Assembly (NCBI GenBank): GCA_947625205.1
Contig: CANQNN010000003.1
Location: forward strand, 1-64,000
Length of the DNA: 64,000 bases
Source of the DNA: an uncultured Lachnospiraceae bacterium
Lineage (GTDB): Bacteria; Bacillota; Clostridia; Lachnospirales; Lachnospiraceae
Direction of reading: 5' to 3'
Position numbers and translations under genes: made by a program. The notes below the pieces were generated by a model. That model worked only from the letters and a program-made list of their open reading frames with translations. It had not been told where the DNA came from and searched no databases. Below, piece by piece: positions 35,151-60,284 of this stretch. Each line of letters begins with the position of its first letter. The first letter of the stretch is position 1.

Positions 35151-36230
35151 ATGAAGCATGAACATATAGAACCGGATCAGGACCAGGAGATCCTGGACGA
35201 AGCGAAAAAAAGCGAAGAGCAGGGACCGGAAGGAAATGAAGAACAGGAACCGGATCAGGACCAAGATGCTTCCGGCGGCCGGTTTCGTATAAATCTTCAT
35301 GCCGCTTTGCTGTGTGCCATTGTACTGATCGTAGCATTTTGCGCTTTCAGATTATATAAATGGAATCAGGGTGAGCCGTCAGACTACGACCCGGATTACC
35401 AGACAACTGATTTTGACATAGAGACGATGGATACCATCATTCCGTTACTGCCCGAACAGTTGGAGGGACACGAGGATGACGGCGTAACCACCATTCTGTG
35501 CCTCGGCGATGACCCTTTTTCTATGGAACAGGGCGAGCACGGGCTGGCGGAGCAGATCGCCGCCAAAACAAATGCCACCGTCTACAACGGCGCGTTTACA
35601 GGCACTACGGTCGCGGCACAGTACCCGACTTATAACGACTGGTACATGCTGGACGCCTTTTCGTTCTCGTATGTGGCGCAGAGCCTCGCATCAGGCGATT
35701 TCGACCAGATGAAACACGCGGCCACATTCAGCTACGATGAAGCGTTCCCGCGCACGGTAGACATGCTTGAATCGATCGATATGAACAGCGTGGACATAAT
35801 ATGCATCATGTATGACGCCAGCGATTATATCAACCTGCGGGCCTGCGATGACCCGAACAGCCCTTATGACATCATAACCTATACCGGTGCGCTGAGAAGC
35901 GGCATCACGGCGATCCAGGAAGCATATCCTTTCATCCGTATCGTTGTCATGTCCCACACGTTCTGTCACTCCGTCGGTGAAGACGGCAATTTTCAGAACG
36001 GCGACCGCACAGACTTAGGCAACGGAACCATAAGCCATTACTGGCAGAAGGAGCTTGATGCATGCATGGACTGCGGTGTTTCTTTCATTGACAACTTCTA
36101 CGGCTCCATCAACGAGGATAACTACATCGAATATATGACCGACTATATCCACTTCAATGACGCCGGGCGGGAACTGCTGGCACAGAGATTTGCCGAGTGT
36201 ATTTTCCCTGACCTTGCGGATACAGAATAG
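35151..36230 (+). CDS. Membrane-anchored SGNH-fold protein with degenerate active site
   Basis: 359 residues. An acidic, Gln-rich cytoplasmic start (1-42), one helix (about 47-67) and an extracellular SGNH-like domain. It aligns by eye with the intact SGNH protein encoded at 53821-54924: LCLGDDPF against VFMGDSVL, VYNGAFTGTT against VYNMAIGGTT, and MYDASDY against VEYGINDF. The nucleophile Ser is Asp121 and the block III Asn is Ala, while DYIHFNDAG keeps the final Asp/His. Hydrolase or acyltransferase activity is therefore doubtful; a binding role is possible. AAAGGAGG precedes the ATG. It is convergent with the MBOAT-linked SGNH gene. Confidence 0.75.
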   Translation: MKHEHIEPDQDQEILDEAKKSEEQGPEGNEEQEPDQDQDASGGRFRINLHAALLCAIVLIVAFCAFRLYKWNQGEPSDYDPDYQTTDFDIETMDTIIPLLPEQLEGHEDDGVTTILCLGDDPFSMEQGEHGLAEQIAAKTNATVYNGAFTGTTVAAQYPTYNDWYMLDAFSFSYVAQSLASGDFDQMKHAATFSYDEAFPRTVDMLESIDMNSVDIICIMYDASDYINLRACDDPNSPYDIITYTGALRSGITAIQEAYPFIRIVVMSHTFCHSVGEDGNFQNGDRTDLGNGTISHYWQKELDACMDCGVSFIDNFYGSINEDNYIEYMTDYIHFNDAGRELLAQRFAECIFPDLADTE

Positions 36231-36250: not shown

Positions 36251-37306
36251 TCAATATTCTTGCGAGAACAACGCTTCAAAATCAAATCTGTCTATCACGG
36301 CGCGCATATCATCAAGCGCGCCTTTCATTTGCTCTGCGCTTGTCACTTCACAGGCTCCGTCGGCAAAGCACTCTGTCATATACCGGTTGATATCCTTGTG
36401 ATAATGGGTATAATCCGCATAATTGTTCAGGTCTGTGACGATCTGTTCCTGACTGGCGAAAAAGAACATTCTCACATTGTCGTAGGACAGCAGCGTATCC
36501 GCTATATACTGATACTCAGCCAACGTAGCCTCCAGATGATTTTCCGTCATCACATCGTTCCAGTACAGGATACTGTACGGCGGGAAAAAAATATAAAATT
36601 CCGTATCGGGATTCTGCTCGATATAGGGGCAGATATTTGCGCGAAGGTTTTTCCTGACGGCCTCGATATACGCCTCCGGGTCTGCCTCGGTCTCCACCCT
36701 TTCCGGCGGTTCATAATTGTGCATCACCCACTGGATGTTATAATATTCATCCGTCCACCAGCTCTGGTAAACCGTTGCCAGATCCGTCCTGTCTGGATCG
36801 GCAAGGGGCCTCAGTACATAATTAAGCAGCACATCCTTATTGAATATATATCGCACATCGTTGACAAGATCATCGTCATAGAGATATGTGGGGATCGGAT
36901 ATTTTGTTTCATCCACGCCCCCGGAGTATGTCATCACATCCACGCCCAGAAAAACCGTGTCCACCCTGTGTCCGCTGTCAAATATGATATCCATGATATT
37001 TGCCTGATCTTTTGGGTAGGCTCCACTGTAACATAACTTGATCGTATTAAGGCCCATAAGCTCATCAAACCACCTGGTATCAAAATTTACCGTCATGGAG
37101 GACCCAAGGATCACGCTGTCATACTCCAGATGTTTCGCCATGCCCGGATTCTGGGATAACTGGTTATCCACCAGGTACGGGAACCATTTAAGCGGCGCGT
37201 GATACTGGAAAAAGGGATCCACCCAGATAACCAGAGCCGCCGTTAGAGAAAGCAATATGAGAATAAACGCTAATGCGGATACGATCCACTTTTTAAATCT
37301 GTTCAT
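36251..37306 (-). CDS. SGNH/AlgX-DltD-like partner of an MBOAT acyltransferase
   Basis: 351 residues. One N-terminal membrane helix (about 8-28) then an extracellular SGNH-like domain with VILGSSMTVNFD (Ser nucleophile block) and YADYTHYHKDINRYM (Asp/His block). Proteins of this type receive acyl groups moved across the membrane by an MBOAT protein and place them on glycans. The MBOAT gene lies 15 bases upstream on the same strand, and GGGGCAGATGTT precedes the ATG. The acyl group, often acetyl, cannot be read from the sequence. Confidence 0.82.
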   Translation of the reverse strand: MNRFKKWIVSALAFILILLSLTAALVIWVDPFFQYHAPLKWFPYLVDNQLSQNPGMAKHLEYDSVILGSSMTVNFDTRWFDELMGLNTIKLCYSGAYPKDQANIMDIIFDSGHRVDTVFLGVDVMTYSGGVDETKYPIPTYLYDDDLVNDVRYIFNKDVLLNYVLRPLADPDRTDLATVYQSWWTDEYYNIQWVMHNYEPPERVETEADPEAYIEAVRKNLRANICPYIEQNPDTEFYIFFPPYSILYWNDVMTENHLEATLAEYQYIADTLLSYDNVRMFFFASQEQIVTDLNNYADYTHYHKDINRYMTECFADGACEVTSAEQMKGALDDMRAVIDRFDFEALFSQEY

Positions 37307-37321
37307 AACATCTGCCCCGAC

Positions 37322-38803
37322 CTAAAAATTAAAATACAGAAATGTGCTTACGTTGGAAAAAGAAAGCACACACCACACTCCCAGCACAGCAAGTACGGCC
37401 GCAGAGCCGATTCTGTACCGCGCGCGCTCCATTCTCTGCGCCGCATTTCTGCCGATCATTGCCAGATATACGCCTGCGGCAAGCATCACTGCCATAGGAA
37501 TATAGCCGCCCCACGCAAACCTGTCGAGATGGAGCACCTTGATAACATACCACAGTTCATCCGGATCAACCGCTGCTGCCAGTTCCGAAGAGACCCTCTG
37601 CACAGGACCCTTAACGGCAGTATACAACATCTTGTTTGCCTGCGGGATATCTTCGGCGCGGAAATAGACCCACGCCACACTCACATAGATAAACAAAAGC
37701 AGTCTCGAGACAAGCGATGCAGCCTTATTTTTACTCCGGATATACCGCGGTTTCAGGTTTTTCAGCCAGAATCTGGTCAATACATACAACGCGCCGTGCA
37801 GGAACCCCCATGCCAGATAATTGAAGCCTGCGCCGTGCCACGATCCGCTGAGTAAGAAAACGACCATCAGATTCAAATACATCCTGACCTGACCTGCACG
37901 GTTTCCGCCAAGCGGTATATAGACATATTTCGTGAAAAAACGGTTCAGCGTAATGTGCCATCTTTTCCAGAACGCAACAATATTCTCCGCCTTGTACGGT
38001 GAATCGAAATTGACCGGGATCTCAATGCCGAGCATCCCGCCGATCCCACGTGCCATATCGCAGTATCCGCTGAAATCAAAATACAGCTGGAGCGAATATA
38101 AAACGATAACGAGCATGGCGTCAAACCGGCCCAGCAGAGCGATATTTTCATATCCGTAATCAACGCCCGCACCGAACGTATCCGCGAGCAGAACCTTCTT
38201 GGACAGTCCAAGGATAAAAAGTCCGAAACCCTCCGCGATCCGCTCCCACCCGACAGGTCTGTGTCCGATCTGCGCAAACTGCGGGAGCATCTCGCTGTGA
38301 TTGACGATCGGGCCCGCGATCAACTGCGGAAAGAAAGAGACAAAAAGCGTATAATCGACAAGCGGGCAGTCCCTCACCTCGCCGCGATAAGTGTCCACCA
38401 CAAAGGAGATCTGCTGAAACGTGAAAAAGCTGATGCCAAGGGGCAGCAGAATGTTCTTAAGCGCCACGGAAGTGCCGAATACGGCATTGACCGTCTCGGC
38501 AAAAAAATCATAGTATTTAAAATAGAACAACACGCCAAGATCGACCGCCACCGCAAGTACCATGACCGCCTTATGCGGCCTTTGGGACAATATCTTGTGA
38601 AACAGATAATTCACGCCGATGCTGCATATCATGATGAGCAGGTAGGCAGGATTAAAATATCCGTAGAACCAGAAGGACATAAAGATCAGGAAAAGCTTGT
38701 CCTGCACCGCCCTGCTCTGCCCCCTGTGATTCGATGGAAGATAGAAGCCCAGCAGGCATATGGGTAAAAAAACAAACACAAAAATATAGGAATTAAATAA
38801 CAT
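37322..38803 (-). CDS. MBOAT family O-acyltransferase
   Basis: 493 residues with about ten membrane helices, typical of the AlgI/DltB/PatA group. Family marks are LLPLGISFFTFQQISFVVD, LIAGPIVNHSEMLPQF, FSGYCDMARGIGGMLG, FWKRWHITLNRFF and SGSWHGAGFNYLAWGFLHG with the catalytic His. It moves an activated acyl group across the membrane for glycan O-acylation. The SGNH partner follows 15 bases downstream, and split membrane-protein genes lie upstream in the same direction. GGAG lies seven bases before the ATG. Confidence 0.93.
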   Translation of the reverse strand: MLFNSYIFVFVFLPICLLGFYLPSNHRGQSRAVQDKLFLIFMSFWFYGYFNPAYLLIMICSIGVNYLFHKILSQRPHKAVMVLAVAVDLGVLFYFKYYDFFAETVNAVFGTSVALKNILLPLGISFFTFQQISFVVDTYRGEVRDCPLVDYTLFVSFFPQLIAGPIVNHSEMLPQFAQIGHRPVGWERIAEGFGLFILGLSKKVLLADTFGAGVDYGYENIALLGRFDAMLVIVLYSLQLYFDFSGYCDMARGIGGMLGIEIPVNFDSPYKAENIVAFWKRWHITLNRFFTKYVYIPLGGNRAGQVRMYLNLMVVFLLSGSWHGAGFNYLAWGFLHGALYVLTRFWLKNLKPRYIRSKNKAASLVSRLLLFIYVSVAWVYFRAEDIPQANKMLYTAVKGPVQRVSSELAAAVDPDELWYVIKVLHLDRFAWGGYIPMAVMLAAGVYLAMIGRNAAQRMERARYRIGSAAVLAVLGVWCVLSFSNVSTFLYFNF

Positions 38804-45201: not shown

Positions 45202-46179
45202 TCAGTTCTTCATGGCTTCCACCACGGTCTGCGCTACAAGCTCCATACCGGCGTGATTCGGATGAACGCCGTCCGATACAAACTCATGCAGATGATCGAT
45301 GTCGACGCCGCAGTTTTCCAGATCGATCGTCGGGATCCCCCGGCTATCCGCAATGATTCGAATCTGCTCCGAATAATCCGATGACGTCATCCCCAAACGG
45401 TTCACCATCGGGTCAAACGGCCGCTCTCCCTTTCCCCAGGTGCCTGCCGGCAACAGCGTACAGCAATATATCTGTGAAACAGGATAACAGCTCTCCAATT
45501 CATCCAGGATCAAAGTATACGCATCGCTGAAGTTATCCACCAGTCCCGGCTCCACAATACGCGTACCGTCGTTATCGCCGAGCGGAATGTTCTTCAGCAG
45601 GTCGTTTGTCCCCATATATACAATGATCACATCTGGCATTTTGCCCTGTCTGCCTGACAACTGGGATATTCTGTACTCGCTGCACCCGTTTGCGGGATCA
45701 TCCGGCGACAGCGAATCTCCCGCGCATGTACACCCGGCGCTGGAGTCATTTGCACATAGCTCCATCTCCATTTCATCCATGACCTGCATCCACCATGTCT
45801 GCGATACATCGGACAGTTCACCGTCAAGCGGATAGAATATGCCGAATCCATCGGGGATCCAACCATCGTAAGTGGAGATGCTGTCACCCAGGATCGACAG
45901 GCTTAACGGCTGCTCCGCACCGGCCTCATCAGGTTCTGTGACCCTGTCGGCGTCTGTATCTGCGTCAACCGCCTGAGCCGTGTAAACACCTGTTTCCGTA
46001 TCATTTGTTTCAACACTGTCGATTGCAGTTTCAACACTATCGATCACGGCATCATTTTCTGCATCATTTTCTGCCGCACTGTCTGCTGTGCCGTCCCGAA
46101 CAGCGCCGCCGCATCCTGCCATACACATAACCGAAAGCAGAAGACACGATGCGCATATTATCCTGGCTTTTTTCACCAT
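45202..46179 (-). CDS. SGNH/GDSL-family lipoprotein
   Basis: 325 residues from the ATG at 46179 (GGGG seven bases before it; the ATG at 46197 has no site). A signal peptide ends in the lipobox MAGC near residue 22, so it is lipid-anchored outside the membrane. After an Asp/Thr/Glu-rich linker the SGNH domain shows LSILGDSISTYDG (nucleophile Ser), YMGTNDLL (Gly/Asn blocks) and DGVHPNHAGM (Asp/His). All catalytic residues are present. It may remove or transfer acyl groups on surface glycans. It lies in the minus-strand cluster between the radical SAM and GT2 genes. Confidence 0.85.
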   Translation of the reverse strand: MVKKARIICASCLLLSVMCMAGCGGAVRDGTADSAAENDAENDAVIDSVETAIDSVETNDTETGVYTAQAVDADTDADRVTEPDEAGAEQPLSLSILGDSISTYDGWIPDGFGIFYPLDGELSDVSQTWWMQVMDEMEMELCANDSSAGCTCAGDSLSPDDPANGCSEYRISQLSGRQGKMPDVIIVYMGTNDLLKNIPLGDNDGTRIVEPGLVDNFSDAYTLILDELESCYPVSQIYCCTLLPAGTWGKGERPFDPMVNRLGMTSSDYSEQIRIIADSRGIPTIDLENCGVDIDHLHEFVSDGVHPNHAGMELVAQTVVEAMKN

Positions 46180-46221
46180 ACCGTAACCCCTCATCATTTG
46201 TCAGTGAAATACTGTCCGACA

Positions 46222-51167: not shown

Positions 51168-51581
51168 ATGCCAGCTTTAAAAATACATCATATCGGCTAT
51201 CTTGTCAAAAAAACAGATGCCGCCATTCTTTCATTTATAAAGCTCGGATATAAGGTCGTCCAGGATACGGTATATGATGACATTCGCAAGGTAAATATAT
51301 GCTTTCTTCAAAAAGACGGCTATCTTATAGAACTGGTGTCCCCCGCATCCGAAGATTCCGTAGTCGCCGGATTACTCAAAAGGTATAAAAACACCCCTTA
51401 TCATATCTGCTATGAAACAGAGCATTTCGACGAGGATTATCGGGCTCTGACAGCCTCCGGTTTTATCGCCATCGACACGCCCACACCCGCTCCGGCTCTG
51501 CAGAACCGTGATGTTGTATTCCTGACAAGTCCTGCCGTGGGAATGATCGAACTGCTCAGACATACTATATCTGAGCCATAA
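51168..51581 (+). CDS. VOC (glyoxalase-like) superfamily protein
   Basis: 137 residues, one or two beta-alpha-beta-beta-beta modules. IHHIGYLVKK (His7/His8), TPYHICYETE and VGMIELLRH supply the His/Glu metal residues in the order of methylmalonyl-CoA epimerase/lactoylglutathione lyase. The fold serves epimerases and dioxygenases. Its 3' end overlaps the convergent ACP gene by 17 bases. Its position beside ACP and FkbH suggests that it could act on the ACP-bound or CoA-bound acyl group, but this is inference. AGGAG precedes the ATG. Confidence 0.85.
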   Translation: MPALKIHHIGYLVKKTDAAILSFIKLGYKVVQDTVYDDIRKVNICFLQKDGYLIELVSPASEDSVVAGLLKRYKNTPYHICYETEHFDEDYRALTASGFIAIDTPTPAPALQNRDVVFLTSPAVGMIELLRHTISEP

Positions 51582-51813
51582 TGATATCGACCATCTCTCC
51601 CACATTCTTCATGGAAACGACCTGTCCCATGTTAAATTTCATGCCAAATTCCTGCTCCACCGCCGCCAGCAGATTAATATGCTCCAGGGAATCCCATTCC
51701 TCAATATCATCCGCCGTTGTGGTATCCGTCACGGTAATGTCCTCGTCGTCAAACACATCCCGGAACACTTCATTCAGCTTTTCATACACTTCTTCTCTGC
51801 TCATTTTGCCCAT
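51565..51813 (-). CDS. Acyl carrier protein
   Basis: 82 residues, highly acidic helical bundle. EWDSLEHINLL contains the Ser (residue 42) that takes the phosphopantetheine arm. It lies 53 bases downstream of the FkbH-like gene and is probably cotranscribed with it. It is not near fatty-acid genes, so a dedicated carrier for a hydroxyacyl group is likely. GGAG lies eight bases before the ATG. Its overlap with the VOC gene is convergent. Confidence 0.93.
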   Translation of the reverse strand: MGKMSREEVYEKLNEVFRDVFDDEDITVTDTTTADDIEEWDSLEHINLLAAVEQEFGMKFNMGQVVSMKNVGEMVDIIMAQI

Positions 51814-51866
51814 ATCGCTCTCTCCACTCTTATAATGTTAATAACAGTACTATATATGGTTTTCCT

Positions 51867-53651
51867 CTATTTTACAACTTCGATCACCGTATTTTTGTTC
51901 TCATAATCAACAATATCAAATCTCCATTCTGTACTGCCATCGTCTTTCTCCCCGGTCTTTGTAAATCCCATGACCGCGTAAAACTCCTTCACCATGACAT
52001 TCTTGGCGGTAGGATAATAATATCCGTATATCGTATGGATGCCGCAGGAAATGCAAGCCTGCACTATGCTGTCCATCATGGCATATTCCATGTCACGCTT
52101 CAGCACACGGCAACTCATCAGCCACAATTCAATATGAAGCGCCTTCTCCCGTTCGTCTTTCCGGCCGATCACCACGGATACAACACCGTTATCGCCGAAC
52201 TTGTCCTCCAGCCTGCCATACCTTGTAATATAAAGGTCATCTGCCGCAAATCTCTCAATATCGCTCTGGGTATATCTTCTGGTCGTCAGGTTAAACTGGT
52301 TGCTCTTGTTGGTCAGCTGGGCGATCCGTGACATGTAGATCGCTTCAAACGGCTTAATAGTGCCTTTCATCTGAAGGGAAAGCAGGTACTCCCTGTAATC
52401 GCCGAAGTTTTGCTGCTGCCGCTTCCTCTCTATATTCGCCTTATACATCTCATTACGCTTCCGGTCGTCTTCCGATAAGTTTGTAACCTCAAAAAATCCC
52501 GCATGGTCCAGCACTCTAATGTACTGCTCCGGCGTGCCGATCTCCGGCACGGCAACGCCCGGCACCTGCGTTCCGACGATCTCACGCTCCGCGGGATTGT
52601 CATCGACAAACACAAGGCTGTCCGGCAGGATATTTAACGCATCCGCTATCGCGGCGATATTCCCGCTCTTAGGCTCCCAATCCGCCTTGATCAGAATAAA
52701 ATCTTCGGGGCGCAGTATCCCGCCCGGATGATTCAGTCCCGCTATGGCGTTTTCATATTCATTCTTGGAGGCAACGTTGAGCATCACGCCGATATCCTTC
52801 TGGGATTTGAGGTATGACTGGAATTCCGCGTAAACCTGCCCCATAGAGGTTTCCTGTCCGATCTCGATATTCTCTACGCCGTCATCGCCTATGACGCCGC
52901 CCCAGAGCGTGTTATCCAGATCTACAACAAGGGATTTTCTGTTCTTTCCGAACACCGCCTTGATAATATTGGACAAGTTATAGGAGAACTCCGGTATTGC
53001 CTGCATACACATGGCATATTTATACATGTGCCAGTATGCAGGATCCGCCCACCGGTCCAGCCCGTACGCCGCCGACAGGTAATTAATGTCGTTGATATAG
53101 AAGTTGTCATGTTCTGCGGCATACTGGTAAAATTTCTCGTTTAACCTGTTGATAAAACTGATACGGCCCTGTCTGTAGACCGCATCCTGGTTCCCCAATA
53201 TCCTGTAGAACGGATACTCAAAATTATTCTGGATCACGGGACAATCGTACGTATCTGCGATTTTCTCCCACATGACACGAAAATGTTCAAACTGCTCTTC
53301 AAGCAGCTCGTCGGTCCGCTGCGGCGTATCTTCTATGGACGGATATGCCGTGATGTTACGGTTGGATGTATGAATATAGATCAGATCCGGTCTAAACTGT
53401 GTAAGCTGGGGGTTATCAAACATCACATCCTGCCAGTACTGCGCATACTCCGATTCATAGAAAACCGGCTGGATCCCCCTGTTCAAAAGAAACAATTCCA
53501 GTATCCTAATAATGTCATGCGTTGTACTGCCGCCCAGGACCGCGATCTTTTTCGTCAGAAGATCCGTCCCGCCCTGCAGCAGTTCTCTTTTGATCTTTTT
53601 AGACTTTTTCAGTATATATTCGCTGTCAAAGGGATATTCCAGTTCTCTCAC
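51867..53651 (-). CDS. FkbH-like HAD-IIIC family protein
   Basis: 594 residues from the GTG at 53651, which has GAGG six bases before it; the GTG at 53663 has a poorer site. The order is an SGNH-like N-terminal domain (VLGGSTTHD near 43), a HAD phosphatase domain (VVDLDNTLWGGVIGDDG near 245) and a C-terminal GNAT-like domain (about 450-590). FkbH proteins load glyceryl from 1,3-bisphosphoglycerate onto an ACP. The ACP gene follows directly. In a polysaccharide setting the glyceryl-ACP or a related acyl group could feed the nearby MBOATs; this last step is inference. A TTGCCG-18-TATGAT promoter lies upstream. Confidence 0.9.
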   Translation of the reverse strand: MRELEYPFDSEYILKKSKKIKRELLQGGTDLLTKKIAVLGGSTTHDIIRILELFLLNRGIQPVFYESEYAQYWQDVMFDNPQLTQFRPDLIYIHTSNRNITAYPSIEDTPQRTDELLEEQFEHFRVMWEKIADTYDCPVIQNNFEYPFYRILGNQDAVYRQGRISFINRLNEKFYQYAAEHDNFYINDINYLSAAYGLDRWADPAYWHMYKYAMCMQAIPEFSYNLSNIIKAVFGKNRKSLVVDLDNTLWGGVIGDDGVENIEIGQETSMGQVYAEFQSYLKSQKDIGVMLNVASKNEYENAIAGLNHPGGILRPEDFILIKADWEPKSGNIAAIADALNILPDSLVFVDDNPAEREIVGTQVPGVAVPEIGTPEQYIRVLDHAGFFEVTNLSEDDRKRNEMYKANIERKRQQQNFGDYREYLLSLQMKGTIKPFEAIYMSRIAQLTNKSNQFNLTTRRYTQSDIERFAADDLYITRYGRLEDKFGDNGVVSVVIGRKDEREKALHIELWLMSCRVLKRDMEYAMMDSIVQACISCGIHTIYGYYYPTAKNVMVKEFYAVMGFTKTGEKDDGSTEWRFDIVDYENKNTVIEVVK

Positions 53652-53716
53652 GGGATACCTCACGCTTTCTCTTTCTTACTTCAACACTTATCCGCATGGC
53701 TTTCAAATCTGTTTCT

Positions 53717-53746
53717 ATCATATCATATTCTACACCGATACGGCAA
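53717..53746 (-). promoter_or_regulatory. Predicted promoter of fkbH-like and ACP genes
   Basis: On the minus strand TTGCCG (53741-53746), an 18-base spacer and TATGAT (53717-53722), just after the terminator of the upstream SGNH gene. Confidence 0.55.
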
Positions 53747-53757
53747 AAAATATTTTA

Positions 53758-53789
53758 AAAGGATGCACGCCATGCAGCATGCATCCTTT
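53758..53789 (-). terminator. Rho-independent terminator of the SGNH gene
   Basis: AAAGGATGCA and TGCATCCTTT form a 10-bp stem with a 12-base loop. The minus-strand transcript continues TTTTAAAATATTTTTT. Confidence 0.8.
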
Positions 53790-53820
53790 CTTAAGATAAA
53801 ATATTATACTTTGGGGACCG

Positions 53821-54924
53821 TTACTCCTCGCGATAATAATCGGACAGGAGGATCTTGCTGATGCAATCGGCATATACATCGCATCCCTTACCTGACAAAT
53901 GGATCCCGTCCTTCAGATATTCCGTCACGTTATAGGCGTCAATGCCGGTCTGTTTCAGCGAATCCAGGAAGAGAACGCCCTCATTCTTATGCTCTGCCGC
54001 TACATAACCGGTAAGCCCGCCGAAATTCACCAGCGTTCCGCACCCGTAATCCAGCGAATAGGAATTGCCTATATAGGTGCCGTTCTCAAATATTTCACAG
54101 TAGTGAGGCGATATCAGCAGGATCTTGGCATCGGGAAAATGATCGATCAGCATTCTTACCCCTAAATCCAGTGCGCCTACATAGGTGTGCGGTTCGTCTA
54201 TATTCAACACCTCACCGTTATCCATATACCGGCTGCGCCCGATCTGACGGCACAGGAAATCATTGATGCCATACTCCACCACAAAATAGTCAGTCCTGGA
54301 GAAATCACAGTTTTCTATAACCTCTTTCGTCGGATATCCGGTAAAAACATCCGAATCTATAAGCCCGCAAGCCGCATAAACCGCTCCGAGAAAACCAACG
54401 GACTGCCACTTTTCATATTCGGCCGACTCTTCCGGCAACAATCCCGCCGTCGTACCGCCTATCGCCATGTTATAAACGCTGGCGTTGCACGCCTGTGCAA
54501 CACGCGCTGCTACGCCTCCGTTCTCGCTCACATCGGCCAAAACACTGTCGCCCATGAACACGATCTGCATCTCGTCATCCTGATCGCTAAGTATCGCATT
54601 GTCAGGCAGGTTTTGTTCCGATAAGGAATTGGCAGATATCGAGTCACCGCTCATTTCTTCCCCGTTATTATCAACCTGGTCGGCAGACTCCGCCGTATCC
54701 GGATCATCTTGAATATCTCCGGTATTGCCCTGCGCCTCCTGCAACTGCTGCTCCAGCTGAAGATTCTGTTCTTCCAGAAGCTCCCTTTTTTCTCTCTCCG
54801 CCCTGACCTGTGTCTGTCCATGTATGATCTCTATGATCGCCAGAATACAGAATGCGATCAGAACGGCAAGCAGTACCGTACTGCTGCTATATCTTTTTCT
54901 TTTCATTCCATTCCTATTATCCAT
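53821..54924 (-). CDS. Membrane-anchored SGNH hydrolase-like protein
   Basis: 367 residues. One N-terminal helix (about 15-34), a short coiled coil rich in Glu/Gln (38-66), an acidic linker and an extracellular SGNH domain. IVFMGDSVLAD (Ser127), YNMAIGGTTAG (Gly block), VEYGINDFLC (Asn block) and KDGIHLSGKG (Asp/His) are intact. It resembles the degenerate protein encoded at 35151-36230. AGGAATAAAAG precedes the ATG, and a terminator follows. It may transfer or remove the acyl group handled by the nearby MBOAT at 56178-57713, but no direct operon link is seen because a 242-base gap lies upstream. Confidence 0.85.
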   Translation of the reverse strand: MDNRNGMKRKRYSSSTVLLAVLIAFCILAIIEIIHGQTQVRAEREKRELLEEQNLQLEQQLQEAQGNTGDIQDDPDTAESADQVDNNGEEMSGDSISANSLSEQNLPDNAILSDQDDEMQIVFMGDSVLADVSENGGVAARVAQACNASVYNMAIGGTTAGLLPEESAEYEKWQSVGFLGAVYAACGLIDSDVFTGYPTKEVIENCDFSRTDYFVVEYGINDFLCRQIGRSRYMDNGEVLNIDEPHTYVGALDLGVRMLIDHFPDAKILLISPHYCEIFENGTYIGNSYSLDYGCGTLVNFGGLTGYVAAEHKNEGVLFLDSLKQTGIDAYNVTEYLKDGIHLSGKGCDVYADCISKILLSDYYREE

Positions 54925-55166
54925 CTTTTATTCCTGCCTTTCCCATTCATTATCCTTCGGCATGTATGGGTTCCCTTATGCTGCTTACATATCCGTATAC
55001 CGGATCCACTAACACAATATCACTTTCAAATCGGCATGAATATACTTCTCATGATTTTTTAATAAAACATTCCAAAAATCTTAAGAATCAGGATTTCGTT
55101 TTGTCTGTCCTCCCTTATTCTATAACAGTATATAATAAAAAGCAGAAAATATTCCTCGCATCATGT

Positions 55167-56102
55167 CTATTCCACGTGATTAACTTTGCGCGTAACCAGC
55201 GTCAGACGGTACTCAAAGTCTCTTCTGTTCCTGACGGCCATGTTGGACAGGATCAGCCCGGTAAACAGTGACTGTATCGCCGCAAGCCCTATAAATCCGC
55301 AGCCAAACAGGGTCGGAAAACGCAGCACCTTACCGGTCTCCACATAGGCGATAAAGACAGGAATAAAGAGGATCACAGCGATCAGGGCAAGAACCAGCGC
55401 GCACACACCGAAAAAGTGCATCGGCTTATAATCCCTGTACAGCTTCACGATCGTGTTGATCACTTTAAATCCATCTGAAAACGTATTGAGCTTGGATTCG
55501 CTTCCCGCCGGTCTGTCCCGGTAATCCACTATCACATTCTCAATCTGCATCTTATTATACACGGCATGGATCGTCATCTCCGTCTCTATCTCAAATCCTG
55601 TGGACAGTACCGGAAAGGTCTTCACAAATCCATAGCTGAAAGCGCGGTATCCGGTCATGATATCCTTGATATCACAGTGAAACAGCCGATTGATGCTGCT
55701 GCGCACGACCGTATTCCCAAAATTATGAAAAGGCCTCTTATTCTCCGTAAAATACGTGGACGACAATCTGTCACCCACCACCATGTCCGCATTGTGAAAC
55801 AGCACCTTATCAACCATCTCTCTGGCATACTCCATAGGATAAGTATCATCGCCGTCCACCATGATATAACACTCCGCCTCTATCTCACGAAACATACGTC
55901 TGATCACATTGCCTTTGCCCTGCATATACTCATGCCGGATCACCGCCCCGGCCTGGGATGCGAGCTCCACGCTGCGGTCTGTGGAATTATTGTCATAGAC
56001 GTAAACCACCGCTTCCGGCAAGGCCTTCTTCGCATCCGCCACCACCTTGGCGATCGTCCTCTCTTCGTTATAACATGGGATCAAAACAGCTACTTTATCC
56101 AT
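55167..56102 (-). CDS. GT2 glycosyltransferase, dolichol-phosphate-mannose-synthase type
   Basis: 311 residues from the ATG at 56102; a GTG at 56132 without a site is not used. VAVLIPCYNEERTI, YVYDNNSTDRS and VDGDDTYPMEYA are the donor and DxD motifs, and MTGYRAFS is typical of the DPM1-like group. Two C-terminal membrane helices (about 230-255 and 265-290) anchor it. It probably makes a polyprenyl-phosphate sugar for outer-face glycosylation. It lies 75 bases after the MBOAT gene on the same strand. Confidence 0.87.
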   Translation of the reverse strand: MDKVAVLIPCYNEERTIAKVVADAKKALPEAVVYVYDNNSTDRSVELASQAGAVIRHEYMQGKGNVIRRMFREIEAECYIMVDGDDTYPMEYAREMVDKVLFHNADMVVGDRLSSTYFTENKRPFHNFGNTVVRSSINRLFHCDIKDIMTGYRAFSYGFVKTFPVLSTGFEIETEMTIHAVYNKMQIENVIVDYRDRPAGSESKLNTFSDGFKVINTIVKLYRDYKPMHFFGVCALVLALIAVILFIPVFIAYVETGKVLRFPTLFGCGFIGLAAIQSLFTGLILSNMAVRNRRDFEYRLTLVTRKVNHVE

Positions 56103-56177
56103 CGTTCCATACACCTTTCTTCGTCGTGGCACATACCGACCTGCGTCTATTTTAACACATAATTTTCATCTATTCCA

Positions 56178-57713
56178 TCAGAACCCCTGATATATAAACT
56201 CACCCGCACTGTAACCCGGTCCGTAACAGCCAAACAAGATCACTGCAAACAAAAGCGCATACCATATAAGCCACCGTACAGGCAGCGGCATCCGGGCAAC
56301 TCTGTCCCTGACAGAGCCTGTCCGCTCTAAGAGCGATACTATAAGAAGCAGCATAAGCGCCACAGCGGCAATGACCATATCCGCACCGTCAAGTCCCAAA
56401 GTAAGCAGCGCGCCGTTCCACAAAATATGCGGATTCCACACCCGGACCGCCCCTTTTAGCATCGCCAGGGCATCTCCCACCGATGCGGAACGAAAAAACA
56501 GATCGCCGATACACACCAGAAAAAAAGTCCTCACAATACGTATCAGTCCGACCAGTTTACCCCCGGCGTCCACATGCCACTTCTCCATGAGCGCTGCGCA
56601 CGGCGGTGCAAGGAGTTCCTCCATCACAATATAGAACCAGTGCAGAAGACCGGAACCGATGACGAATTTCCAGTCTCCACCATGCCAGATCCCCACTGTC
56701 AGCCACAGGATAAACATAGCCGCAAACGTTGCATACTGTTTGCCACGTTTCTTACCGAACCTGTCTCTCCACGACCGGTTAAGCTCTGTAAAAAAGCGGG
56801 TGCGCAGCACAGGATAAAACACATACTCCTTCATCCACACCCCCAGCGTAATATGCCACCTGCGCCAATATTCGGCGATGCTGCCCGCAAAAAACGGCGT
56901 TCTGAAATTCTCGGGAAGAATAATGCCAAGGCTCTCCGACATGCCGAGTACAATATCCATACAACCGGAGAAATCCGTATAAAGCTGAAACGCATAGCAC
57001 ACAGTCGCGACCCAGATATAGGTCCCCGCATAATCCGGATACGCGCCATACACCGTATCGACCAGAATCCCCAGCCGCTCGGCGATCACCAGCTTCTTAA
57101 AGAATCCCCAGGCCATACGCTGCAGTCCGCGTGTCACTCTCCGGTAATCAAACGCATGCGGTTCAAAGAACTGTTCCCCATGCTCTCTGTACTTAAGGAT
57201 CGGTCCCGAAATGATCACCGGAAAATACATCCCATACAGCATCAGCTTCAGGTAATTATTCTGCGGTCTGGCAATGCCATAATACACATCGATAACATAA
57301 CCGAGGAGCGAAAATGTGTAAAACGACACTCCCAGAGGAACCAGAAAATCCACACTCCGGATCAGATCGCCGGAGCTTCCAAATATTCTGGCAATGCCAT
57401 CGATCGTATAAATGCCGAAATTCACATATTTTAAAACAACCAGTATACCAATATTGGCCAGTATCGTTACGAGCAGAACTCCCCGGCGCTTTCCTGCATT
57501 CTCCGGGGGTACGGCGGCAAGCAGGCGGATACCGGCATAACAGACCGACACAGACGCCACAGGATATAAGATCAGCATGCCGTTATTACTCAGCAGATAA
57601 TAGGCTATACTGCATAACAGCAGAAGCCCCCACTGCAGTTTGTGCGGAATAAGATAATACAATATCAAAATAAAAGCAAAAAAACACAAAAAATAAAACG
57701 AGGTTATTCCCAT
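56178..57713 (-). CDS. MBOAT family O-acyltransferase
   Basis: 511 residues from the ATG at 57713 with AGGA seven bases upstream; a longer frame to 57758 would begin before the predicted transcription start. About eleven helices. FLVPLGVSFYTFSLLGYVID, ISGPILKYREHGEQFF, FSGCMDIVLGMSESLG, YWRRWHITLGVWM and LTVGIWHGGDWKFVIGS with the catalytic His mark the family. The adjacent FkbH/ACP genes make it a candidate for moving a hydroxyacyl group from ACP across the membrane, as DltB does with D-Ala-DltC. Acetyl-CoA remains the default donor. Confidence 0.92.
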   Translation of the reverse strand: MGITSFYFLCFFAFILILYYLIPHKLQWGLLLLCSIAYYLLSNNGMLILYPVASVSVCYAGIRLLAAVPPENAGKRRGVLLVTILANIGILVVLKYVNFGIYTIDGIARIFGSSGDLIRSVDFLVPLGVSFYTFSLLGYVIDVYYGIARPQNNYLKLMLYGMYFPVIISGPILKYREHGEQFFEPHAFDYRRVTRGLQRMAWGFFKKLVIAERLGILVDTVYGAYPDYAGTYIWVATVCYAFQLYTDFSGCMDIVLGMSESLGIILPENFRTPFFAGSIAEYWRRWHITLGVWMKEYVFYPVLRTRFFTELNRSWRDRFGKKRGKQYATFAAMFILWLTVGIWHGGDWKFVIGSGLLHWFYIVMEELLAPPCAALMEKWHVDAGGKLVGLIRIVRTFFLVCIGDLFFRSASVGDALAMLKGAVRVWNPHILWNGALLTLGLDGADMVIAAVALMLLLIVSLLERTGSVRDRVARMPLPVRWLIWYALLFAVILFGCYGPGYSAGEFIYQGF

Positions 57714-57727
57714 ATCCGTATCCTTAC

Positions 57728-57756
57728 TTGCTGAATCTGCGTTTATTTTATCACAC
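57728..57756 (-). promoter_or_regulatory. MBOAT promoter region sharing a 29-base element with pgm
   Basis: The minus strand has TGTGATAAAATAAACG with an extended -10 (57745-57750), matching 27 of 29 bases with the pgm upstream block at 18248-18276. TTTATT lies 17 bases upstream of the -10. Confidence 0.5.
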
Positions 57757-57799
57757 ATACGATATGAAATAAATATTTTTTACGCCTTTATGCATCTAT

Positions 57800-57828
57800 T
57801 TGCATATTTCATACAAATAGAGTAAAAT
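57800..57828 (+). promoter_or_regulatory. Promoter of the forward MBOAT gene
   Basis: TTGCAT (57800-57805), a 17-base spacer and TAAAAT (57823-57828), 30 bases before the ATG at 57859. Confidence 0.65.
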
Positions 57829-57858
57829 TACTACAGTCGTTTTGGAAGAAGGTGCGGT

Positions 57859-59304
57859 ATGCTTTTTAACTCTATATCTTTTGGCATATTTATTATGATC
57901 GCCTTTATTTTATATTATAGCGTCCCCCACAGATGCAGATGGTGCTTTCTGCTGATCGCCAGCTATGCATTCTATATGAATCTGCATATCGGTTACGGTA
58001 TACTGCTGTTTATGACGACGGTACTGACCTATGTGCTGGCGCTGTGTCTTGAGAAAGCCCCGACGCCCGGCAGCAGGAAAAAATATCTGTTAAGCGGCAT
58101 TCTGCCGCTGGTGTTGATACTCCTCTTCTATAAAACAGCCGGTCCTGTCATCGACAGACTGAATCTCATGATAAACGCGGGACGCCTGGCCATGCAGCCG
58201 ATCACCGTGCGTATTCTGCTTCCGGCAGGTATTTCCTTCTACTTTTTTCAGTCTATAGGTTACCTGGCGGACGTATACCGGGGTAAGATCAAAGCGGAGC
58301 GGCACTTCGGCTACTATGCGCTGTTTATCTCCTTTTTTCCGCAGCTGCTGGCAGGGCCGATCGGCAGAGCCGAAAGTCTGCTTCCCCAGTACAAAAAGGA
58401 ACGCCCCTTCGACTACGGCAACGTAACGTACGGACTTAAACTGATGGCCTGGGGATATTTTAAGAAGCTGGTGATCGCCGACATATTTGCCGATGTAGTC
58501 AATGAGGTCTATGATAACGTGCATGCCTATGTAGGCATGGTGCTCATCGTTGTCACAGTCATGTTTGCCATAGAGATCTATTGTGATTTTTCCGGTTATT
58601 CGGATATTGCAATCGGATGCGCGAAGCTGTTCGGGATCGACCTCATGACCAATTTTAAAAGTCCTTATTTTTCCTTCTCCATCCGGGAATTCTGGAACAG
58701 ATGGCATATATCGCTGTCCACATGGTTCCGCGACTATGTATATATTCCTTTAGGCGGCAGCAGAGTCCCCAGATGGCGGCACTGTCTCAACCTGCTCATC
58801 ACCTTTCTGGTGAGCGGTTTCTGGCACGGCAGCAGCCTGACATATATCGTGTGGGGCGCCCTGCACGGTCTGCTGCAGATCATGGAGACGCTGGTCCGAC
58901 CCGGAACAGGAAAGGGCGCTGCCGCCAAAAGGCGCAAACATCTGTGGCAGCTTCCCGTGACCTTCATTGTACTGTGTTTTACCTGGATCTTCTTCCGCGC
59001 CAACAGTATGCAGGATGCCGGGTGGATCATCTCACGGCTGTTCTGGGACATCGGGCGGCCGCTCAACTACCTGCAGACCTGCATTATCAGCCTCGGCCTT
59101 CCGCGCGTCTCAGCATTGGGCATGCTCGCGTCCGTGGCGGTTCTTGCCTTGTATGACGCATTATCACTGAAATACGATGTGATAAACGTTCTCTCGCGGC
59201 AGAAGTTTTTTATCAGATGGCCCGTATATGTGCTGTTTCTTGTTGTTATAGCACTGTTTTCCCATAAGGGCGTGGCAACGGAATTTATATATTTCCAGTT
59301 TTAA
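57859..59304 (+). CDS. MBOAT family O-acyltransferase
   Basis: 481 residues, about ten helices. ILLPAGISFYFFQSIGYLAD, LLAGPIGRAESLLPQY, FSGYSDIAIGCAKLFG, FWNRWHISLSTWFRDYVY and VSGFWHGSSLTYIVWGALHG with the catalytic His show the AlgI/DltB class. GAAGGTGCGGT precedes the ATG. It is divergent from the MBOAT at 56178-57713 and followed 20 bases later by its own SGNH partner. It probably O-acylates a surface glycan; acetyl is the common group. Confidence 0.93.
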   Translation: MLFNSISFGIFIMIAFILYYSVPHRCRWCFLLIASYAFYMNLHIGYGILLFMTTVLTYVLALCLEKAPTPGSRKKYLLSGILPLVLILLFYKTAGPVIDRLNLMINAGRLAMQPITVRILLPAGISFYFFQSIGYLADVYRGKIKAERHFGYYALFISFFPQLLAGPIGRAESLLPQYKKERPFDYGNVTYGLKLMAWGYFKKLVIADIFADVVNEVYDNVHAYVGMVLIVVTVMFAIEIYCDFSGYSDIAIGCAKLFGIDLMTNFKSPYFSFSIREFWNRWHISLSTWFRDYVYIPLGGSRVPRWRHCLNLLITFLVSGFWHGSSLTYIVWGALHGLLQIMETLVRPGTGKGAAAKRRKHLWQLPVTFIVLCFTWIFFRANSMQDAGWIISRLFWDIGRPLNYLQTCIISLGLPRVSALGMLASVAVLALYDALSLKYDVINVLSRQKFFIRWPVYVLFLVVIALFSHKGVATEFIYFQF

Positions 59305-59324
59305 AGGAGAGTGACCAGGATGCT

Positions 59325-60284
59325 ATGAAGACAAAATATGACGTTATACGGTTTATTCTAAAGTGTATATTGATCCCCGCAGCCGCCGTTATCATTATCC
59401 TGATACTGAATGAACCATACAGGGAGATCAACGACCAAAAATACATGGATACCGTCAAATTCACACTGCTCAAAGATAACCCGCAGCAGATCGAGATCGC
59501 CAATCTGGGAAGTTCCCACGGAGCGTGTGATTTCGTGTATGACGCTATTACCCAGAGGGGATACAGCTGCTTCAATTTCGCCAACACAAGCCAGAGCTAT
59601 AACTATGATTATGCCGTCCTGACCGAATTCGGGCAGAACATGACGGCTGGCAGCGTGCTCTTTATCCCCGTCTCTTATTTTTCCTTTAACAACGAAGTTA
59701 TCAACAGCGTTGAGGCTGAGTCGATGAGTCTGCGGTACTACCGTTTCCTGTCGCCGGATAATATACCCGATTATGACCCATACATTGACATCGTCACCAA
59801 CAGGCTGCCCATCCTGTCCGCCGGAAAAGATATCCTGCAGCTGTTTCCAAAGCTGAACACCGTTCTGACGGCACACGCTGCAGATAATGGGATAAACACG
59901 GAAGAATTCATAAGAAGGGCACAGGAACGCTACAGCCGGCATTTTGACAATAAAGAGGAATATTTTATGCCGGAACGCATTGAAAACCTGCGGGATATCA
60001 TCGATTACTGCAAACAAAACCAGATCACGCCGGTATTGATCACTACGCCGTTTTCCACATATTACAACGATCTGGTAAGCCAGGATTTCCTTAAGGAATT
60101 CTATGAGACGGTCAACACGGTCGCATCGGATACCGGTGTTAACTACTATGACTATTCACACGATGAACGCTTTGGCGCTAATCTGGAATATTTCTCAGAT
60201 TCCGATCATCTCAACGAAACAGGGGCCGCATATTTCATGGATATCATCTGGAATGAAACAGAAGAACTGGAAAAATTTCATTAG
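59325..60284 (+). CDS. SGNH/DltD-AlgX-like partner of the forward MBOAT
   Basis: 319 residues. One N-terminal helix (about 10-28), then IANLGSSHGACDF with the Ser block, FNFANTSQSYNYD and SDSDHLNETGAAYFM with the Asp/His block. The fold is of DltD/AlgX type, which completes acyl transfer outside the membrane. The gene follows the MBOAT by 20 bases. AGGAGAG and a nearer CAGGATGCT precede the ATG. Confidence 0.83.
   Translation: MKTKYDVIRFILKCILIPAAAVIIILILNEPYREINDQKYMDTVKFTLLKDNPQQIEIANLGSSHGACDFVYDAITQRGYSCFNFANTSQSYNYDYAVLTEFGQNMTAGSVLFIPVSYFSFNNEVINSVEAESMSLRYYRFLSPDNIPDYDPYIDIVTNRLPILSAGKDILQLFPKLNTVLTAHAADNGINTEEFIRRAQERYSRHFDNKEEYFMPERIENLRDIIDYCKQNQITPVLITTPFSTYYNDLVSQDFLKEFYETVNTVASDTGVNYYDYSHDERFGANLEYFSDSDHLNETGAAYFMDIIWNETEELEKFH

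Follow-up and report, generated by a model that had tools for sequence, protein, structure and literature searches.

A candidate carrier-dependent MBOAT-SGNH acylation system with FkbH as its proposed loader in a glycan locus of an uncultured Lachnospiraceae bacterium

Among the pathways that combine a membrane-bound O-acyltransferase (MBOAT) with an SGNH protein, the Dlt pathway is the one with a carrier protein; the others have no carrier and evidently use acyl-coenzyme A (acyl-CoA) (PMC12148441; here and below, statements on cited papers are those of extracts of these papers). In Dlt, DltC is the carrier; it binds the MBOAT DltB at a horizontal helix of the latter, by hydrophobic contacts and salt bridges (PMC11035591, PMC9338922). 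Here, we analyze a gene cluster in 64,000 nucleotides of an uncultured Lachnospiraceae bacterium (contig CANQNN010000003.1, positions 1 to 64,000; below, the window), in which an acyl carrier protein (ACP), an FkbH-like HAD protein, a VOC protein, two MBOATs, and two SGNH proteins are encoded close together. An earlier note had read this gene set from the DNA and proposed a Dlt-like system with FkbH in place of the ligase DltA; each of the genes is indeed found at its coordinates, with conserved active-site residues. At a probability of roughly two in three, we favor a Dlt-type, carrier-dependent extracytoplasmic acylation by MBOAT and SGNH proteins that would use FkbH instead of DltA and place a glyceryl-derived group on a glycan; its chemistry, its glycan acceptor, and the contact between ACP and MBOAT are inferred.

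The proposed system resembles Dlt in having a carrier encoded in the same cluster as the first MBOAT (MBOAT1), a DltB-type MBOAT without a PLGG loop, an SGNH protein, and an FXYXXF acyl-shuttle motif. It differs in its loader, which is FkbH where Dlt has the AMP-forming ligase DltA, and in its shuttle motif, which is fused to MBOAT1 but resides on the separate microprotein DltX in Dlt. Furthermore, the acyl group is expected to be glyceryl-derived and the locus is rich in glycosyltransferases, whereas Dlt puts D-alanine on teichoic acid. An AMP-ligase profile detected no adenylation domain in the window, and FkbH is found in the place of such a ligase. Having no DltA, the cluster does not count as a Dlt system proper, although it would work like one if our reading is correct. 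FXYXXF-tailed MBOATs with SGNH partners are also known from PatA/PatB and the other O-acetylation pairs for alginate, cellulose, and peptidoglycan. Unlike these, MBOAT1 is accompanied by a carrier and a loader and is devoid of the PLGG loop. The FXYXXF shuttle has been demonstrated for PatA and DltX (PMC12148441).

Outside the FkbH group, the MBOATs most closely related to MBOAT1 occur in Lachnospiraceae loci (L164-L177) that encode an AMP-ligase, an ACP, an MBOAT, and an SGNH protein and share the layout of the cluster. In contrast to the window, they have a DltA-like adenylation enzyme, often with a pyridoxal phosphate (PLP) decarboxylase, where FkbH stands here. The ligase of L170 scores above the cut-off for amino acid adenylation domains and near but below those for DltA. 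A diaminopimelate decarboxylase-type PLP decarboxylase is encoded at several of the loci L164-L174, L176, and L177.

Enzymes of the FkbH family load an ACP with glyceryl from 1,3-bisphosphoglycerate. FkbH-ACP modules are best known from polyketides (PMC7489565), and FkbH domains replace A domains in some nonribosomal peptide synthetases (PMC8949500). The cluster shares both proteins with the modules of such biosynthetic clusters, and the active-site residues are conserved alike, but it has no ketosynthase, its outlet consists of MBOAT and SGNH proteins, and VOC or MaoC/SDR proteins appear as modifiers. A further parallel comes from Campylobacter jejuni, where the flagellin locus with cj1302 includes an fkbH-domain gene and the glycan of strain NCTC 11168 carries a glyceric acid derivative (PMC7099621, PMC3068675). 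Linking that gene to that derivative joins two separate papers and would be our own step; the acceptor there, in contrast to what we propose, is pseudaminic acid on flagellin. To our knowledge, no MBOAT is encoded in the C. jejuni flagellin glycosylation locus. Searches of open-licence papers listed work on aeruginosin-type natural products but no FkbH-MBOAT surface system; several of these searches were dominated by papers without FkbH and exclude little.

FkbH, its carrier, and the type of MBOAT1

The window FkbH contains the FkbH domain, the HAD catalytic residues, and the conserved cysteine, and its active-site positions D248, D250, T252, K332, D354, D355, and C518 are kept in 78 of 78 relatives. 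Its PDB relative, 3slr, is uncharacterized. The ACP scores below every ACP cut-off in NCBIfam.

Both MBOATs of the cluster end in FXYXXF (FIYQGF in MBOAT1, FIYFQF in MBOAT2). In an alignment of 20 FkbH-type MBOATs, the catalytic histidines H302 and H359 of MBOAT1 are invariant, as is the C-terminal shuttle tyrosine motif. The two proteins differ after the first catalytic histidine, where MBOAT1 has HITLGVWMKEYVFYPVLRTRFF and MBOAT2 has P[LM]GG; apart from the two copies of the MBOAT1 type, the MBOATs of the own genome carry P[LM]GG at that position. With a profile built from the 20 FkbH-type MBOATs, relatives turned up in 367 of the 397 genomes of the family. From its ranking we picked by hand 20 loci with MBOAT1 relatives away from FkbH, and from another ranking 20 control loci. 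At the former, 15 of the 22 MBOATs lie within 3 kb of an ACP, and 12 are accompanied by an AMP-ligase as well. In contrast, ACP, FkbH, and ligase are absent within about 5 kb on each side of all 21 control MBOATs (0/21), 20 of which carry PLGG.

A tree of 98 MBOATs, made by a quick method with SH-aLRT values only, places MBOAT1 in a clade of 49 members, all lacking PLGG (SH-aLRT 100), and MBOAT2 outside it. The clade unites 27 FkbH-adjacent, 13 AMP-ligase-adjacent, 3 ACP-only, and 6 unlinked MBOATs. Because MBOAT1 groups with the MBOATs of ligase and carrier loci, FkbH would appear to stand where a DltA-like ligase stands in the sister loci. In MBOATs without PLGG, the median loop between the catalytic histidines is 55 residues long with a charge of +7 to +8, versus 38 residues and +3 to +4 in those with PLGG; the loop of MBOAT1 has 55 residues and a net charge of +7, and the ACP has -14. 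We would read PLGG as the mark of a CoA-type donor. If PLGG and the absence of a nearby carrier, as seen in the control set, are taken to define the acetyl-CoA (PatA/AlgI-like) type, MBOAT2 shows both features, whereas MBOAT1 lacks PLGG and has a carrier in its cluster.

Recurrence of FkbH neighborhoods and their tailoring modules

The FkbH model TIGR01686 scored above its cut-off at 102 places in 82 of 397 family genomes. Our family set comprises 83 loci, namely 80 fetched places and the 3 of the own genome, and the 19 unfetched places are mostly weak, truncated, or second copies. A second set of 80 FkbH loci came from a scan of named genomes, mostly metagenome-assembled genomes of Bacillota and one Eisenbergiella tayi. 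The two sets may include closely related species, but no FkbH N terminus is identical between them. ACPs were counted from short open reading frames (ORFs) only, GNAT and VOC proteins by separate profiles.

An ACP lies within 1.5 kb of FkbH at 71 of the 83 family loci and accompanies it at 70 of the 80 named-genome loci. MBOATs are found within 5 kb at 42/83 loci, the nearest being on the same strand as FkbH in 40 of these 42, and at 62/80 loci, where 60 of the 62 are PLGG-less. A random stretch of FkbH size in the own genome, with its 10 MBOATs, has an MBOAT within 5 kb in about 4.5% of cases, a rough figure that ignores the clustering of genes in glycan loci. FkbH-MBOAT proximity exceeds chance. 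A ketosynthase motif is present at only 2/83 and 0/80 loci, and a polyketide origin of the gene set was rejected on these counts. FkbH-ACP-MBOAT neighborhoods, which the earlier note suggested seeking in other genomes away from polyketide genes, are thus recurrent and almost always free of ketosynthases. Compact FkbH-ACP-MBOAT-SGNH orders occur, for instance, at L056, L069, and L117, and at L060 (9042-11204) FkbH and ACP are fused into one protein of 720 amino acids (aa), directly followed by an MBOAT.

The own genome contains three FkbH genes. Contig C11 (L015, L016) carries a second copy of the glycan locus with identical gene order, in which most proteins are 62 to 87% identical to those of the window and the SGNH proteins 45 to 73%, two of them at 45 and 48%. 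The third FkbH, on contig C33 (L014:607-3797), is 33% identical; its locus has the order FkbH-ACP-GNAT-like ORF-VOC, with no MBOAT nearby. The VOC gene of that locus consists of two adjacent pieces in different frames and is perhaps broken.

This third locus would suit a different use of the module, in which FkbH and ACP, possibly with VOC, make a hydroxyacyl-ACP for a cytosolic transferase, be it a GNAT or some other, that acts on a nucleotide sugar; MBOAT1 would then use acetyl-CoA and owe its presence solely to the building of a glycan at this locus. We regard this as unlikely, though not negligibly so. It would agree with the GNAT genes that lie within 5 kb of FkbH at 13/83 family loci, 8 of which also encode NeuB, and with C. 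jejuni, where an fkbH-domain gene resides in the flagellin glycan locus (PMC7099621) and the flagellin of NCTC 11168 bears di-O-methylglyceric acid on pseudaminic acid (PMC3068675). However, GNAT and MBOAT share none of the 83 loci, the 30 window proteins scanned include no GNAT in the cluster, and the MBOATs here are of the carrier-associated type, whereas no control MBOAT has an ACP nearby. NeuB, NeuA, or PseG genes together with GNAT are seen at FkbH loci such as L053, L089, L104, L105, and L127. The proximity of FkbH-ACP-GNAT to genes for nonulosonic acids suggests that these sugars are N-acylated with a glyceryl-type group. The simplest view would be that FkbH-ACP is one general acyl-ACP donor module with alternative tailoring steps and outlets.

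With respect to tailoring, the best PDB matches of the window VOC protein, 2qh0 and 3hdp, carry the names lactoylglutathione lyase and glyoxalase I, and its presumed metal ligands H8, E55, H79, and E128 are invariant in 21 of 21 sequences. We take this H/E/H/E set to be that of glyoxalase I, as opposed to H/Q/H/E in methylmalonyl-CoA epimerase; the model of the latter, TIGR03081, gives 41.5 bits against a cut-off of 114.95. As established for glyoxalase I, enzymes of this type form an enediolate from 2-hydroxyacyl thioesters at the alpha carbon, which would suit glyceryl-ACP. Epimerization to L-glyceryl would be our first choice for its action and dehydration to pyruvyl-ACP our second. FkbH is present in 29 of the 30 genomes that hold the VOC protein versus 82 of 397 overall (p 4e-21), in line with the inclusion of VOC in the gene set of the earlier note, and 23 of 33 VOC places lie within about 3 kb of FkbH.

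The VOC protein is encoded at 24/83 and 18/80 loci, MaoC at 15/83 and 19/80, and an SDR at 16/83 and 10/80, 12 and 10 of the latter together with MaoC (p 2e-9 and 6e-8, respectively; all p values for modules assume independent loci). VOC and MaoC overlap at no locus in either set (p ~0.003 and 0.004), and VOC and SDR do not co-occur either. At related loci, MaoC plus SDR instead of VOC would give lactyl-ACP. Yet other loci combine MaoC with a split transketolase (9 in the named-genome set: L240, L241, L262, L272, L276, L278, L279, L293, and L296). An aldo/keto reductase is present at 4 of the 8 of these that are listed individually, the domains being confirmed by Pfam for single examples, and at such loci pyruvyl-ACP could be built up to a branched polyhydroxy acyl group.

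Conceivably, the overall system is as we propose but the VOC protein acts on the carrier as a glyoxalase that turns methylglyoxal and holo-ACP into D-lactyl-ACP; FkbH would then act earlier or produce a second acyl-ACP. The names of the PDB matches and the invariant H/E/H/E ligands accord with this idea. We nevertheless deem it improbable, as the methylglyoxal route would have no need of the FkbH that nearly all VOC genomes possess, and MaoC and SDR take the place of VOC at other FkbH loci.

Cluster layout and the weight of the evidence

On the minus strand, the order of transcription is MBOAT1, GT2, anchored SGNH protein, FkbH, and ACP (Table 1). The VOC gene converges on the ACP gene and its end overlaps it by 17 bp, and MBOAT2 and the DltD-like SGNH protein are encoded on the strand opposite to the MBOAT1-ACP row. 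ACP and MBOAT1 are 4.4 kb apart, a distance that is shorter in many relatives. In the anchored SGNH protein, S127, N221, D339, and H342 are invariant (11/11). Profile searches gave no DltD match for this protein; the DltD match belongs to the SGNH partner of MBOAT2. The surroundings include GT2, YdjC, UDP-glucose dehydrogenase, epimerase, GtrA-like, and large membrane proteins, and these glycosyltransferase, sugar-nucleotide, and GtrA-like neighbors identify the cluster as a glycan locus. The window contains a third MBOAT (37322-38803, minus strand), which is of the PLGG type and ends in FLYFNF; it is followed by a protein of 351 aa without a Pfam match (36251-37306), a pair that is also found elsewhere in the genome. 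Further SGNH genes of the window lie at 35151-36230 (plus strand) and 45202-46197 (minus strand).

Table 1. Features of the cluster and their positions in the window
Feature	Coordinates	Strand	Matches and remarks
VOC protein, glyoxalase-I-like	51168..51581	+	Glyoxalase_4 2e-15; PDB 2qh0/3hdp ~1.5e-29; proposed acyl-ACP modifier
ACP, dedicated, DSLEH site, 82 aa	51565..51813	-	PP-binding 2.4e-5; S42 in 77/77; net charge -14
FkbH-like HAD glyceryl transferase/phosphatase	51867..53663	-	FkbH_N 3e-13; TIGR01686 3e-80, above cut-off; proposed loader replacing DltA
Terminator-like hairpin between SGNH and FkbH	53757..53790	-	Pattern scan; promoter-like match at 53746-53717
SGNH protein, N-terminal membrane anchor	53821..54924	-	Lipase_GDSL_2 1.8e-7, slightly below cut-off; proposed final transferase
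GT2, polyprenyl-phosphate sugar transferase-like	55167..56132	-	AglJ model 5e-59, below cut-off; inside cluster
MBOAT1, PLGG-less carrier-type, C-terminal FIYQGF	56178..57758	-	PF03062 2.2e-15; clade of 49, SH-aLRT 100
MBOAT2, PLGG-type (PLGGSR), ends in FIYFQF	57859..59304	+	PF03062 7.9e-30; outside clade of 49
DltD-like SGNH protein, adjoins MBOAT2 co-directionally	59325..60284	+	PF04914 4.8e-7

The earlier note had counted both MBOAT/SGNH pairs as parts of the system, and one may ask whether the two pairs and the ACP work as a single unit. MBOAT2 lies divergently beside MBOAT1, and this pair recurs in L015 (the own second copy), L073, L099, and L236. MBOAT2 has the PLGGSR sequence, however, and groups with carrier-free MBOATs, and we consider a joint system to have little chance of being correct. 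MBOAT2 and the DltD-like SGNH protein belong to an ordinary PLGG-type group: MBOAT2 is probably an acyl-CoA-dependent MBOAT outside the system and, with its SGNH partner, probably forms an unrelated acetylation pair. Hence, of the Dlt-like system with FkbH in the role of DltA, the comparisons retain FkbH, ACP, VOC, and MBOAT1 but not this second pair. Finally, a small-molecule product of tetronate or methoxymalonyl-type chemistry, with the MBOATs as bystanders, is very improbable, for although FkbH-ACP is best known from polyketides (PMC7489565), ketosynthase motifs are nearly absent from both sets of loci and the neighbors here are glycosyltransferases, sugar-nucleotide enzymes, and MBOAT and SGNH genes.

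Several observations count against the carrier-dependent, FkbH-loaded system that we prefer. Plain DltB similarity does not single out MBOAT1, since MBOAT2 scores above it both against DltB (1.1e-28 versus 1.6e-21, the latter being the match of MBOAT1 to 6bug) and with the LTA_dltB model (159.6 versus 130.2 bits); MBOAT1 is also below the DltB equivalog cut-off. The loop of DltB itself, with 45 residues and a charge of +5, falls between the PLGG-less and PLGG types. Furthermore, 11 of the 38 PLGG-less FkbH-adjacent MBOATs lie outside the clade of 49, and so do 8 FkbH-adjacent MBOATs that carry PLGG. Counted by independent pairs, the association of PLGG loss with a nearby carrier is not significant (about 1.9 pairs for and 0.1 against, of 13). 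Loss of PLGG by repeated convergence, which had been expected, was not supported by this test, and we therefore treat it mainly as a trait of one clade. At L048, L054, L060, and L091, the MBOATs beside FkbH-ACP are of DltB length (~400 aa) and end without FXYXXF, and no DltX-like ORF was found beside them.

Gene neighborhoods also offer counterevidence. In the window, FkbH is separated from the MBOAT1 gene by 2.5 kb with the terminator-like hairpin in between, and given this hairpin and the promoter-like match, FkbH-ACP may form a transcript separate from that of MBOAT1, GT2, and SGNH. Ten of the 33 VOC places are not near FkbH. At 41 of the 83 family loci there is no MBOAT within 5 kb, and 13/83 have a GNAT instead; the earlier note had named FkbH-ACP widespread without MBOAT as a finding that would speak against its proposal, and this holds for about half of the family loci. 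FkbH-ACP alone thus does not imply an MBOAT. Lastly, AMP-ligase/ACP genes elsewhere in the own genome could in principle load the window ACP. An adenylation enzyme gene followed by an ACP gene lies about 123 kb past the window end on the same contig (C3:186960-188186, L307), and C11:2462-3649 (L308) encodes an adenylation protein with a built-in ACP domain; possibly, these genes represent an ordinary Dlt-like locus of this genome.

Proposed route and its meaning

In the route that we envisage, FkbH would transfer glyceryl from 1,3-bisphosphoglycerate to the 82-aa ACP, as the chemistry of its family suggests. The VOC protein would then alter the acyl-ACP, most likely at the acidic alpha carbon via a metal-bound enediolate, resulting either in epimerization of D- to L-glyceryl or in elimination of water to yield pyruvyl. 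The loaded ACP would dock on MBOAT1 at its enlarged, basic loop on the cytosolic side, and MBOAT1, by analogy to DltB/DltX and PatA, would shift the acyl group onto the tyrosine in the FIYQGF motif at its own C terminus. Outside the membrane, the anchored SGNH protein would hand the group over to the glycan.

More tentatively, and with a little less than even confidence in the picture as a whole, FkbH-ACP may head a modular family of surface hydroxyacylation systems that load the carrier without adenylation by ATP, tailor the acyl group on the carrier, and deliver it to a carrier-specific MBOAT. Plain FkbH-ACP-MBOAT loci would then add glyceryl, and those with VOC would add L-glyceryl or a similar altered group. 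MaoC and SDR would provide lactyl via pyruvyl-ACP, whereas MaoC, split transketolase, and aldo/keto reductase would generate a branched polyhydroxy acid by joining a ketol to pyruvyl-ACP. In this same picture, MBOATs that use CoA would be told apart from those that use a carrier by the PLGG loop.

If the proposal is true, these loci constitute a second class of carrier-fed MBOAT-SGNH systems and a new route of bacterial surface modification. It would join the fields of polyketides and the cell envelope, connect the surface of common gut bacteria directly with a glycolytic intermediate, and supply a sequence rule for predicting the donors of MBOATs. Likewise, it would give a hint as to how glycerate and lactate substituents reach bacterial glycans.

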